Below, piece after piece: positions 3,243 to 23,642 of a stretch of DNA of 26,114 nt. Made by a program: the position numbers and the translations under genes. The notes beneath the pieces are model-generated. The model made no database searches, was not told the origin of the DNA, and saw only the letters and a program-made list of their open reading frames with translations. Numbering within the stretch: position 1 is the first letter of the stretch; each line of letters opens with the position of its first letter. The stretch lies in IMG/VR virus record IMGVR_UViG_3300006749_000101, positions 1-26,114 of that record. One strand, 5' to 3'. The DNA comes from a virus.

Positions 3243-3425
3243 ATGAAAGATACAAACCAACTGACAAAAGATTTAAGTGCCGTTTGGCATGCGCTTGAAT
3301 GTTATCGTGAGGATTCAATTCCAGAGGGGATTGAAGAGTCGTGGGACGAGGAGTGGGATGAAATCTGCACGGCTATGGCTCACATTCATGAGGCACTAGA
3401 CATAACACATGAGGAAATTGGATGA
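3243..3425 (+). CDS. Very acidic 60-residue early protein
   Basis: The start at ATG 3243 is set by the strong AAGGAGGTGCATTGAC upstream. The in-frame start at 3204 lies within the previous gene. The protein has about 17 Asp/Glu against 3 Lys/Arg in 60 residues, concentrated in the ESWDEEWDE segment. It is predicted mainly helical. Size, charge and early position recall DNA-mimic antirestriction proteins such as Ocr, but no sequence match is claimed. Its stop overlaps the methyltransferase start by 4 nt (ATGA), which couples the two genes. Confidence 0.78.
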   Translation: MKDTNQLTKDLSAVWHALECYREDSIPEGIEESWDEEWDEICTAMAHIHEALDITHEEIG

Positions 3426-4525
3426 GACACGTTGATTTGTGTTCGGGCATTGGAGGTTTCGCACTTGGTTTCGAGTGGGCGGGATTATCCAAGCCCGTTT
3501 TGTTTTGCGACATAGAACCTTGGAGTCGCAAGATTATTAGAAAACATTGGCACGATGTGCCGATAGCAGAAGACGTAAAGGAATTAGCTAATGACCCAGA
3601 AAGAACTGTTCCCGATTGTGAAATCCTCACAGCCGGATACCCCTGTCAACCATTCTCGCAAGCAGGAAAACGCAAAGGCGAAGAAGACCCTCGCCACATC
3701 TTCCCGTACATTATGCAAATTGTTGCATCCAAAAGACCCTCTTGGTGCGTTTTCGAAAACGTTTACGGGCATGTCAGCATGGGACTCGACACTGCGCTCA
3801 CTGCAATGGAGGCAGAAGGTTACGCCACGAGGTCGTTTATTATTCCAGCTGTATCCGTCGGAGCACCCCATAGAAGAGACAGAATCTTCATCGTCGGACG
3901 ATTTATGGGCGACACCGAACACGATGGATCACCTGCCGCAACGCTCGGACGAAGCACTCATGAGGCAAGCAACGACGAGCCGCAAGGGAAGGAAACGCCC
4001 AGGAAATCTAAGGGAACAGGTGGACGAGAGGACGGCAGCAATGTGGCCCACCCCGACGGCGATGACGGGGGGCACGGGAGTAGCACCGAGTCACAAGGAA
4101 GGAAAGCACGGGTGGAACATAGGGGCGGCGGTGAACGACAGCCTGTCAGACAACCCGACCAGAATGTGGCCCACTCCAACGACGAGGGATTACAAGGGAA
4201 TGTCGGGCAAAGGGCGGCAGGAACGCAAGGGCAATCCAGCGGACACGTTACCCAACGCGGTAGCAATGTGGCCCACCCCGACAGCGAACGAAGATGCGGC
4301 GGGGACACCCAACGGCAAGATGCAGAAGATGTTGGGCAACCACCCAGAGATTCGTGGAGCGTCACCGGAGGAGTGGAAACGTGGGGCGTTGAACCCGACG
4401 TGGGTAGAGTGGCTAATGGGATACCCAAAAGGGTGGACAGAATTAGAGGACTAGGCAATGCCATTGTCCCACAGATAGCAAAACAAATTGGATTAGCAAT
4501 AAAGGAAAGCATAGGACATGAGTAA
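3422..4525 (+). CDS. C5-cytosine DNA methyltransferase
   Basis: This 367-residue enzyme transfers a methyl group from S-adenosylmethionine to carbon 5 of cytosine. The conserved motifs are in order: motif I (DLCSGIGGF, residues 5-13), motif IV with catalytic Cys75 in GYPCQPFS, motif VI (ENV, 112-114), motif VIII (GAPHRRDRIF, from residue 147), and motif X (RIRGLGNAIVPQIA, about 342-355). The region between VIII and X, where target recognition normally sits, is low-complexity, rich in Gly, Asp, Arg and Gln, with NVAHPD or NVAHSN repeats. It looks unlike a folded recognition domain. The same DNA carries a second long frame (3591-4454). Modification probably protects phage DNA from host restriction. 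The target sequence cannot be read here. It is coupled to the preceding acidic gene by ATGA. Confidence 0.92.
   Translation: MRHVDLCSGIGGFALGFEWAGLSKPVLFCDIEPWSRKIIRKHWHDVPIAEDVKELANDPERTVPDCEILTAGYPCQPFSQAGKRKGEEDPRHIFPYIMQIVASKRPSWCVFENVYGHVSMGLDTALTAMEAEGYATRSFIIPAVSVGAPHRRDRIFIVGRFMGDTEHDGSPAATLGRSTHEASNDEPQGKETPRKSKGTGGREDGSNVAHPDGDDGGHGSSTESQGRKARVEHRGGGERQPVRQPDQNVAHSNDEGLQGNVGQRAAGTQGQSSGHVTQRGSNVAHPDSERRCGGDTQRQDAEDVGQPPRDSWSVTGGVETWGVEPDVGRVANGIPKRVDRIRGLGNAIVPQIAKQIGLAIKESIGHE
3577..3582 (+). promoter_or_regulatory. Ribosome binding site for the nested frame
   Basis: AAAGGA lies eight bases before the ATG at 3591, within the methyltransferase coding sequence. It is as good as the ribosome sites of neighbouring genes, so internal initiation is plausible. 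Confidence 0.55.
3591..4454 (+). CDS. Nested +1-frame MWPTPT-repeat protein inside the methyltransferase gene
   Basis: This 287-codon frame lies entirely within the methyltransferase gene, shifted by +1. It starts at an ATG with AAAGGA eight bases upstream. Visible parts are a basic N-terminus, a VTPRGRLLFQLYPSEHP segment near residue 80, a WATPNTMDHLP segment, three MWPTPT repeats (Met at 151, 192 and 226), and a C-terminal NPTWVEWLMGYPKGWTELE. I recognise this style as a recurrent phage protein family of unknown function. The MWPTPT repeats are the shifted reading of NVAHPD, and WVEWLMGYPKGWT is the shifted reading of the GRVANGIPKRVDR stretch before motif X. Repeat-to-repeat differences are mostly silent in this frame. 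No enzymatic motif is seen. It could still be a shadow frame whose relatives in databases are also artefacts. Confidence 0.6.
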   Translation: MTQKELFPIVKSSQPDTPVNHSRKQENAKAKKTLATSSRTLCKLLHPKDPLGAFSKTFTGMSAWDSTLRSLQWRQKVTPRGRLLFQLYPSEHPIEETESSSSDDLWATPNTMDHLPQRSDEALMRQATTSRKGRKRPGNLREQVDERTAAMWPTPTAMTGGTGVAPSHKEGKHGWNIGAAVNDSLSDNPTRMWPTPTTRDYKGMSGKGRQERKGNPADTLPNAVAMWPTPTANEDAAGTPNGKMQKMLGNHPEIRGASPEEWKRGALNPTWVEWLMGYPKGWTELED

Positions 4526-20937: not shown

Positions 20938-22215
20938 CTATCCTCTGCCTAAATTCTCTAAGCCATAACCAAGAGCCGCGATTCCCGCACCAGTTAACGC
21001 TGCCCCCGTGTTTGGTTGCGGAGTAGCTGGACGTGAACCAACGCTCAGTGCTGTTTGTGTATACGGCACACCTTTCAAAATATCAGAACGAATTTGAATT
21101 GCTTTAAATGGATCCATAACGGCAGCTAACTGATCACCATACAAAGCTTCCTTTAGACGTTGTTCTGCACTTGCTTCTAAACCACCCAACGCTGTCAATG
21201 TTTCAATATCTAAAGCTCCAAGACCCGAGACTCGTGCGGCGAGATCAGATTGTGCTCCGCCTAAACCACTAAACATTCCGCCAGCATCGCCAAGAATACC
21301 CGCACCAAGTTCAGTTCCTGCAAGACCTGTTGTGATGCCTTTCAGACCCAGTTCTCCTGCACCTAATCCAAGACGACCAGCTTCTGCTAATGAACCAAGA
21401 CCTAATTGATTAGCAGACAAGAACCGTGCCTGTTGATCCTCAAACGCTTTTTGCGCCCTTGATGCAGCAGACTCAAAGCCAGCACGTCTAAGTTCAGCAG
21501 CAGTTTGTGCTTTTTGTTCAAGAGTTGCTCTATCAAGTTCAGCGTCCATAACAGCCGCACGACTACCACCAAAACCTCCTGCTCGGGTTGCCTCTGCACG
21601 TTGTCTGTTACGAGCAATATCTGATTCACGCTGAATGTCTGCAAGACTCTGATCAATTACGTCCTGTGTAAACGGACTCATAAAATCACTAACACCCGTA
21701 GGATCAAACGCTTTCGCTCCACCTGCTTCAAGCCCGCCCGCAATACCTGCAATATCCGAAGCTAGACCCATACCAAGTCCAACAGAAGGTTGTGCAGCAC
21801 CTGTTGCCGCCGCGCCCAAACCAGAAGCAGTATCCGCTAATCCGCTAAGTTGATCGGCAGTTGCACCAGCACTACCATAATAAGACGAAGCAAGATCAAG
21901 ATAAGGCTGATACGAACCAATACCTCCAACACCAGCAAGCAATGCCATTTCTTGTGTAGGCGATAACCCTGTTACGAATGGAGACCTTTTTGGAGTAAAG
22001 AAAGGTGTTGCCGTTGAAGCTTCTGCCAGATCAGCCAACAATTTGTTTTGTTCTGCTTCTGCTGCTGGGTTGACAACAGGAATATTTAGACCAATTTGAG
22101 CGTCGTCACCAAGTCCAGCAATCAAACCTTTTAATGACTCGTATGTTGTAGGTGGAGCGGACTCTCCTGTATTTTGTTGTGTGTATTGAAAAGGATCAAA
22201 ATTAAGCTCGGACAT
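20938..22215 (-). CDS. Gly/Ala-rich structural protein
   Basis: This 425-residue protein is dominated by Ala, Gly and Leu (AGGLEAGGAKAF, GAGELGLKGITTGLAGTELGAGILGDAGGMF), with a charged coiled-coil segment near residues 190-265 (IQRESDIARNRQRAEATRAGG and QKAQTAAELRRAGFESAASRAQKAFEDQ). The tail is Gly-rich. This composition is frequent in inner virion or tail proteins of marine podoviruses. The start is supported by AAAGGAG before the TAATG junction with the upstream gene. No known catalytic motif is seen. Confidence 0.7.
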   Translation of the reverse strand: MSELNFDPFQYTQQNTGESAPPTTYESLKGLIAGLGDDAQIGLNIPVVNPAAEAEQNKLLADLAEASTATPFFTPKRSPFVTGLSPTQEMALLAGVGGIGSYQPYLDLASSYYGSAGATADQLSGLADTASGLGAAATGAAQPSVGLGMGLASDIAGIAGGLEAGGAKAFDPTGVSDFMSPFTQDVIDQSLADIQRESDIARNRQRAEATRAGGFGGSRAAVMDAELDRATLEQKAQTAAELRRAGFESAASRAQKAFEDQQARFLSANQLGLGSLAEAGRLGLGAGELGLKGITTGLAGTELGAGILGDAGGMFSGLGGAQSDLAARVSGLGALDIETLTALGGLEASAEQRLKEALYGDQLAAVMDPFKAIQIRSDILKGVPYTQTALSVGSRPATPQPNTGAALTGAGIAALGYGLENLGRG

Positions 22216-23642
22216 TATGCGGCTCCTTTTTCAAGTTTATTCATCAACGCGTACATTTTTGCGGCTCCTTTTTCACGGTTTCCGCCACCTGCATTACGAA
22301 CAGCCTTCGCTGTCATTACAAATTCACCGTCCGATAACAATGCTGGCACACTGTCTGATGTGCCTGTTCCGGGTCCGACTATCTCGCCGCCGTCATTCAA
22401 GCCCACTGTTTCACGACGTTGTTTATAAAACTCGCCAAATTTCTGAGCTTGTTCAGCATAACGTGGGTCGCCACTTGTGCCCATTAATTGTTGTACAATT
22501 AGTTCTTGTTGTTCTGGTGACAGCTTTCTTACCTCTTCCATTTCTTCTGAGCTAAGTATACCACTCAACAGTGCTAGTCCGCCTACAGGTATAGAAGCGG
22601 CTCCTACAAAATCGCCAAAGCTGTTTTTAAGAGTAATGTTGTCGATAAACTCGTCGGTTCCTTCTCCAAGTTTCTTGGTAAATCGTTGCATGAAACCAAG
22701 TTCTGAGTCAGGTGTGGCTGCTGGCGTGACTGCCTCTTCAAGGTTTAAACCACTAGTGACATTTATAGGGTCTGAACTACTTCCTCCCAAGTTTAAACCA
22801 CCAGTGACATTTATAAGGTCTGGAGTACTTCCTCCCAAGTTTAAACCACCAGTGACATTTATAAGGTCTGGAGTACTTCCTCCCAAGTTTGTACTTAAAG
22901 CATCGACAGTTATATCTTTAGCGTCAATATTAAGATCAGGTAAAAGATCTTTCACTTGTTGATCCATAATAGAAATTTCTTCTGCGCCGATGTCTGGTAG
23001 CTCGTTTATTTCTACAGGCACGGCAGCAGGAATAGTGTCCACCTTTGCACCGAACAAGTTCTGTGCGCCTTTTGTTAAGCTACCAACGCCCCTTTCTATT
23101 GATTCTGAAACCGTTTTACCAGGACCCGTTTGTAACAATCCTGAAACTGCTGCTTGTTTCAAAGCTCCTCTTAGAGCGTCATCTGTCTCTATACCACGAG
23201 CTTTGTCTACGGCGAAGTTACCAGCGGCTTGTGCCATTATTCTTTGTGTGGTTGACAGTGAATCTATGCCACCTATCTGAGCACCTAGATATGCTTTACC
23301 ACCTGCGAACAGAGCATCTTCAGTTGATGCCCCCTCTAATTTTGCTAAACCAGCAGCAGTTGCCGCACCCAACGCAGGATTAACACTTCCCACGACCAAA
23401 GGTAAAACAACCGCAGCAACCTTACGAAGTTCTTTTGGTACAACTTTACGGAAAAGACTTCCCAATCCATACTGAGGCACACCCATTGCACGAAGACGTT
23501 CGGCTAGTTCCTCTTGTCCTCCTGCAAGACTTTCAATACCCATTGGAGAATTTGGATTAGTGACAGCAAACTGCCCTACAGCCGCCTGTGCGTCCATAGG
23601 TAAGGTTGCCATAATTCCAGTGGGTTGTGCGCCATAAATCAT
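22215..23642 (-). CDS. Structural protein with 16-residue tandem repeats
   Basis: This 475-residue protein has a hydrophobic Ala-rich part near residues 75-100, then a linker with three tandem copies of NLGGSTPDLINVTGGL (or close variants). The C-terminal segment contains GTSDSVPALLSDGEFVMTAKAVRNAGGG, a signature I recognise from many phage tail or structural proteins, together with MYALMNKLEKGAA. The start overlaps the next upstream gene by ATGA. A 16-bp direct repeat (22218-22233 and 22260-22275) encodes the KGAA-type ends. It is probably part of the tail or internal virion. No enzymatic motif is visible. Confidence 0.75.
   Translation of the reverse strand: MIYGAQPTGIMATLPMDAQAAVGQFAVTNPNSPMGIESLAGGQEELAERLRAMGVPQYGLGSLFRKVVPKELRKVAAVVLPLVVGSVNPALGAATAAGLAKLEGASTEDALFAGGKAYLGAQIGGIDSLSTTQRIMAQAAGNFAVDKARGIETDDALRGALKQAAVSGLLQTGPGKTVSESIERGVGSLTKGAQNLFGAKVDTIPAAVPVEINELPDIGAEEISIMDQQVKDLLPDLNIDAKDITVDALSTNLGGSTPDLINVTGGLNLGGSTPDLINVTGGLNLGGSSSDPINVTSGLNLEEAVTPAATPDSELGFMQRFTKKLGEGTDEFIDNITLKNSFGDFVGAASIPVGGLALLSGILSSEEMEEVRKLSPEQQELIVQQLMGTSGDPRYAEQAQKFGEFYKQRRETVGLNDGGEIVGPGTGTSDSVPALLSDGEFVMTAKAVRNAGGGNREKGAAKMYALMNKLEKGAA
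22743..22886. repeat. Three 48-bp tandem repeats in a coding sequence
   Basis: The unit is 48 bp (16 codons). Copies start at 22743, 22791 and 22839, with four bases of a fourth copy at 22887. The copies at 22791 and 22839 are identical, so the array is recent. The copy at 22743 differs at several sites. All copies remain in frame, so the array varies protein length. Confidence 0.9.

Follow-up and report, generated by a model that had tools for sequence, protein, structure and literature searches.

Two overlapping reading frames in a virus record of 26,114 bases (IMG/VR IMGVR_UViG_3300006749_000101, the whole stretch analysed and hereafter the window) very probably encode the two subunits of a single split C5-cytosine DNA methyltransferase (MTase), with the smaller protein as the target-recognition subunit. 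The larger gene (alpha, 3422-4525) contains wholly within it, at an offset of +1, a second ORF of 287 codons that starts with ATG (beta, 3591-4454, plus strand). This nested gene is best read as that of a target-recognition subunit, in the manner of M.EcoHK31I, because beta holds the motif IX that is missing from alpha and because relatives carry the same parts in other layouts. An earlier note, made from the sequence of the window, had considered the nested frame to encode a real second protein, and the analysis carried out here has confirmed that it is a real, selected protein. The AAAGGA placed by that note eight bases ahead of the nested ATG was found as described, and the three MWPTPT copies and the C-terminal ending (WVEWLMGYPKGWTELED) are present together with one LWATP. 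The TAG stop codon of beta (4452-4454) lies inside the alpha motif X stretch.

Features of the nested MTase gene pair in the window (positions in the window; TRD, target-recognition domain).
Feature	Position	Strand	Basis
Alpha subunit gene, C5-cytosine MTase, 367 aa, motifs I-VIII and X, own frame without motif IX	3422..4525	+	PF00145, AF2, Foldseek, motif-IX profile
Shine-Dalgarno-like site AAAGGA of the nested gene	3577..3582	+	Sequence; Shine-Dalgarno-like motif in relatives; Lys53 codon
Putative beta subunit gene, nested (MTase frame +1): N-domain, four TRD-like cassettes, motif IX	3591..4454	+	
Beta N-domain, residues 1-105, overprinted on alpha motifs IV-VIII	3591..3905	+	phrog_1008, lowered four-fold rate, AF2
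Cassette 1, WATPNTMDHLPQRS...NLREQV	3906..4043	+	Cassette cluster, 89 loci
Cassette 2, WPTPTAMTGGTGVAPSHK...	4044..4166	+	Relatives as the first of two cassettes in L148 and the third of four in L004; similar one in freshwater phage ctgrD200
Cassette 3, WPTPTTRDYKGMSGKG...	4167..4268	+	Cassette comparison
Cassette 4, WPTPTANEDAAGTPNG...	4269..4388	+	Cluster at positions 1-5, 20 loci
Motif IX, nested frame, LNPTWVEWLMGYPKGWTELED (beta residues 267-287)	4389..4451	+	Profile matches; in frame with motif X in L203, L218 and NiebruSaylor gp5
Alpha-frame filler linking motifs VIII and X, about residues 166-316, with little evident constraint on the protein	3917..4370	+	AF2 pLDDT ~38; substitutions track the nested frame
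Three 30-nt direct repeats at cassette boundaries (4033, 4156, 4258); alpha reads NVAHPD/NVAHSN, beta MWPTPT	4033..4287	+	
Alpha motif X, LGNAIVPQIA	4451..4480	+	Sequence; LGNA invariant among relatives

Elsewhere in the window, a minus-strand ORF (22215-23642) is predicted to encode a 475-residue protein with three near-identical NLGGSTPDLINVTGGL-type repeats.

The nested frame is open far beyond chance. No +1-frame stop was observed in 125 non-redundant loci, when 515 were expected from synonymous shuffling of the MTase codons and 1477 if codons were drawn at the usage seen in the MTase outside the overlap (these counts, like those of starts and Shine-Dalgarno sites below, were taken over related loci and are not independent events). 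For the window MTase alone, which again has no stop in this frame, synonymous shuffling of its own codons gave a mean of 3.9 expected stops, a figure that rose to 12.5 when codon usage was taken from outside the overlap. A long open stretch, typically of 200-360 codons, was found in the MTase +1 frame of 163 related loci, about half of which had been retrieved with the MTase sequence as query and not with the nested one, and the +2 frame was typically open for about 30-115 codons; shorter +1 stretches were confined to incomplete contigs and a few short alpha genes. The nested start is also conserved: of 126 non-redundant loci, 100 have it at MTase codon 56, and a Shine-Dalgarno-like motif precedes it in 91% of relatives. 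The MTase Lys53 codon, at the core of this motif, was AAG in 99 of 99 loci (63% for other Lys codons), and the nested stop of the relatives mostly lies 20-28 codons ahead of the MTase stop.

Counting tests on related sequences have shown that both frames are under selection. Change at four-fold MTase sites, determined in 50 pairs, was 0.252 before the overlap (codons 1-55), 0.136/0.078/0.051/0.011 within it and 0.287 past the nested stop, the beta N-domain stretch corresponding to the values of 0.136/0.078 and the region between motifs VIII and X to 0.051, as against 0.25-0.29 outside the overlap. When pairs were picked solely on MTase codons 1-55, the profile kept its shape (0.228; 0.178/0.095/0.073/0.033; 0.305). 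After motif VIII and up to motifs IX/X, substitutions at MTase positions 1/2/3 numbered 1404/917/990, with an excess at position 1, which is the third position of the nested codons, and close pairs of loci changed overwhelmingly at this third position (nested positions 3/2/22 for L016-L024 and 5/5/35 for L060-L069). Between motifs VIII and IX the constrained protein is that of the nested frame and the MTase frame is filler, so the suggestion that the low-complexity middle of the MTase is set by the other frame was borne out.

Alpha has the features of a catalytic chain. It matches PF00145 (E=2e-38) over residues 1-160 only and displays the C5-cytosine MTase catalytic features of motifs I-VIII (PCQ, ENV, HRRDR), PCQPFS and ENV being invariant among alpha relatives together with H150, R152 and R154 of motif VIII. 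In the AF2 model, obtained like that of beta from input alignments free of rows from phage records, residues 1-165 were mostly confident and 337-367 confident, with residues 166-335 predicted to be disordered (pLDDT ~38), and the core model aligned by Foldseek to M.HhaI (E=4e-12). A profile of the nested-frame motif IX gave no match in the window alpha, and this chain does not combine motif IX and a TRD.

Beta is composed of an N-domain (residues 1-105), four segments that open with WATP or WPTP (residues 106-266) and the terminal motif (residues 267-287). Residues 5-166 match phrog_1008 (E=4e-28), and searches with beta matched no family in Pfam or NCBIfam and, with phmmer, no PDB sequence. 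When beta was modelled alone, the mean pLDDT was 61, with values of about 80-87 over much of residues 31-90 in the N-domain, and Foldseek found no fold match for this weak model. The N-domain, without a recognised fold, is retained in an unlinked relative (locus L174), and no counterpart is known from single-chain MTases. A typical C5 MTase carries its TRD and motif IX on one chain, between motifs VIII and X. Three lines of comparison identify the C-end of beta, which carries LNPTWVEWLMGYP, as C5-MTase motif IX. Its profile matches single-chain mycobacteriophage MTases just ahead of motif X (WillSterrel, E=2e-6; Starcevich, E=4e-5; best shuffled control, 0.33); it is followed by motif X in the same frame in L203, L218 and NiebruSaylor gp5; and it aligns with RMLSPRECFRLQGFPDSF of the canonical phage MTase KP27, a link that, as for CHPC1148, is made by position and by alignment via the mycobacteriophage enzymes, since the profile alone reaches neither of these two canonical enzymes. 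Cassettes of the LPTP type are found in frame between motifs VIII and IX, the place of the TRD, in the single-chain MTases of mycobacteriophages WillSterrel and Deb65. In the Deb65 gene (gp64, L380 207-2231) two frames hold such cassettes: the +1 frame has three, and the gene's own frame has four, ahead of motifs IX and X.

Hundreds of phages and bacteria share the layout of the window, which was found in nearly all viral-contig loci, in 35 of 41 loci from bacterial genomes of many phyla, and in cultured phages of Paenibacillus, Lacticaseibacillus, Bacteroides, Escherichia, Klebsiella and Salmonella. The nested family is recurrent in phages, as had been expected, but it rarely stands alone, since almost all relatives lie inside an MTase gene. 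A stand-alone protein of unrelated function was considered and rejected for the same reason, and because the cassettes and the LNPxWVEWLMGYP stretch resemble an MTase TRD and motif IX. The proposed frame-shift relation between the two families is supported. Among relatives, these parts also occur in other layouts. In L017, L218 and NiebruSaylor (genes 6/5) the two genes form an overlapping split of the M.AquI type, in which alpha stops after motif VIII and beta has cassettes, motif IX and motif X in one frame. L203 and its relatives have motifs IX and X in alpha and the cassettes in +1, and the constrained frame changes exactly there (middle 35/8/6, IX-X 9/2/22). A reading of L203 as a plain ancestral single-chain MTase was rejected, only IX-X being in frame. 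The Neville gene resembles the L203 layout, and that of Starcevich has cassettes in both frames. L174 has an unlinked downstream beta gene with N-domain, cassettes and motif IX and with its other two frames full of stops, and is the only clearly unlinked gene found; as in L017, L218 and NiebruSaylor, beta is present there with the alpha frame closed. The canonical single chains of KP27 and CHPC1148 have no comparable +1 ORF.

Some further arrangements were noted in these loci. A pair of overlapping genes annotated as 'DNA methylase' in Corndog-type mycobacteriophages (L382 778-1729, NiebruSaylor genes 6 and 5) looks like a natural M.AquI-type split, with motifs I-VIII and then TRD, IX and X one frame over. 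An MTase gene from a Clostridia MAG (L196 2182-3230) has motif IX in the alpha frame and motif X in the third frame, and is either damaged or an intermediate in a change of frame. In L043 (1186-2350), an intact MTase gene has a further motif IX/X fragment behind it, which looks like the remnant of a duplicated or exchanged 3' end; L044, L046, L122, L130 and L132 are similar. A plasmid of Paenibacillus bovis (L207 2429-2893) has a second motif-IX-like ORF, annotated as hypothetical protein, right after the nested pair.

Nested proteins mostly carry 1-5 tandem cassettes ahead of motif IX, shuffled and non-redundant; most of the 296 distinct proteins compared had 1-4 and 17 had five, with a median cassette length of 42 aa. 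Across loci, 2437 cassette pairs had at least 80% identity, 1026 of them at differing positions, and the neighbour was unrelated in 1304 of 2367 testable pairs, counts that span related loci and are not independent recombination events. Within loci no pair was more than 70% identical, and no cassette was duplicated inside a locus. By these comparisons, cassettes can be seen to be swapped between loci. They are likely to be TRDs, because of their in-frame place between motifs VIII and IX in single-chain MTases and because of the tandem TRDs of Bacillus phage MTases. A non-repeating, shuffled set of cassettes suggests a multispecific array, so the enzyme probably methylates several sequences, and it may in this way shield phage DNA from several host restriction enzymes.

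Programmed ribosomal frameshifting, which would produce one hybrid chain (motifs I-VIII, cassettes and motif IX, perhaps back to motif X) with no separate start, would restore the single-chain MTase order, and some mycobacteriophage genes do alternate cassettes between two frames. It is nevertheless very unlikely, as the ATG is at a fixed codon with a Shine-Dalgarno site in most relatives, the constrained beta N-domain upstream of motif VIII would be left unused by a shift after VIII, two shifts would be required, alpha is open through motif X and the L174 beta gene is unlinked. The location of motif IX in beta, exactly where alpha is without it, and the in-frame cassettes of single-chain MTases make it very unlikely that the nested protein is real but has a separate job, such as MTase regulation or host-defence blocking, and is not a specificity subunit, even though its N-domain has no recognised fold, beta can be unlinked and neither phrog_1008 nor the 'Mte8-like' protein of phage K1ind2 carries a tested function. 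That the nested frame is a shadow ORF, kept open and similar by MTase composition and conserved motifs, is scarcely credible: parts of its N-domain do mirror conserved MTase motifs, the shifted reading of GAPHRRDRIF giving HPIEETESSS as had been pointed out (NVAHPD and MWPTPT being the alpha and beta readings of the repeats), and the MTase middle is of low complexity, but synonymous shuffles give 515 stops against none, frozen four-fold sites are limited to the overlap, substitutions in the middle fall at nested third positions, and a mere shadow, with all homologues of that kind, stops appearing freely and no selection, is contradicted and ruled out by the overlapping-split and unlinked layouts, where beta is present with the alpha frame closed.

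In the split MTase that is favoured here, alpha would be the catalytic part, with the cofactor and catalytic motifs I-VIII, a filler merely kept open and motif X. Beta would be made by internal initiation at its own Shine-Dalgarno site and ATG, and would contribute the N-terminal domain, four tandem TRD cassettes and motif IX, the TRD/IX stretch of ordinary C5 MTases thus being read one frame over. Both chains would then assemble into a heterodimer with methylation activity. On a broader scale, there are reasonable, if not strong, grounds to propose a widespread class of phage C5 MTases with an interchangeable array of TRD cassettes in the +1 frame, in which each cassette is open in two frames, recombination occurs at the MWPTPT/NVAHPD repeats, the enzyme is combinatorial, multispecific and anti-restriction, and the specificity subunit has a domain overprinted on the catalytic motifs.

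Nested genes of the same kind had been annotated before in Paenibacillus phage Shelly (gp56, 'g55 internal gene') and in E. coli phage K1ind2 (ORF28, 'Mte8-like'), in records that state neither function nor selection evidence and give no explanation; a search of the literature available found no paper that ties nested phage MTase genes together and none for 'Mte8'. If the proposed reading is true, M.EcoHK31I, seemingly a one-off, would represent a gene architecture common in phages and in many bacterial phyla. The gene pairs also provide a long and well-sampled overlap on one strand in prokaryotes, in which selection acts demonstrably on both frames. Because one of the two proteins is often dropped in annotation, many 'DNA methyltransferase' entries probably are without their specificity subunit, and experiments with alpha by itself may fail. 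Should the cassettes be TRDs, the target specificity of phages could be tested one cassette at a time.

The closest precedent is M.EcoHK31I. Its small subunit has 176 aa and, as Lee, Kam and Shaw are said to have described in 1995, is encoded in an alternative frame within the larger gene. M.EcoHK31I (YGGCCR) is a two-polypeptide C5 MTase whose larger polypeptide holds motifs I-VIII and X and whose smaller one supplies motif IX (PMC3404938). The window pair is alike in that alpha is a large polypeptide with motifs I-VIII and X and without IX, and beta a smaller one that carries motif IX and is encoded within the large gene in another frame. However, the predicted TRD of M.EcoHK31I was placed in the larger subunit (PMC3404938), and the split therefore differs from that of the window, where the constraint between motifs VIII and X is in the nested frame and the small subunit, of 287 aa and widespread in phages, appears to carry TRD cassettes and an N-domain. 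In M.AquI, also a two-polypeptide C5 MTase, the catalytic half and the TRD/IX/X half are separate (PMC3404938). This is the layout of L017, L218 and NiebruSaylor genes 6/5, whereas the window pair has motif X in alpha, not in the small subunit, and a beta that is wholly nested. Multispecific MTases of Bacillus phages are single chains. Those of SPR, SPbeta, phi3T, rho11 and H2 have tandem target-recognition domains for several targets (PMC8936443), and the putative array of the window differs in belonging to a second polypeptide, read from the other frame.
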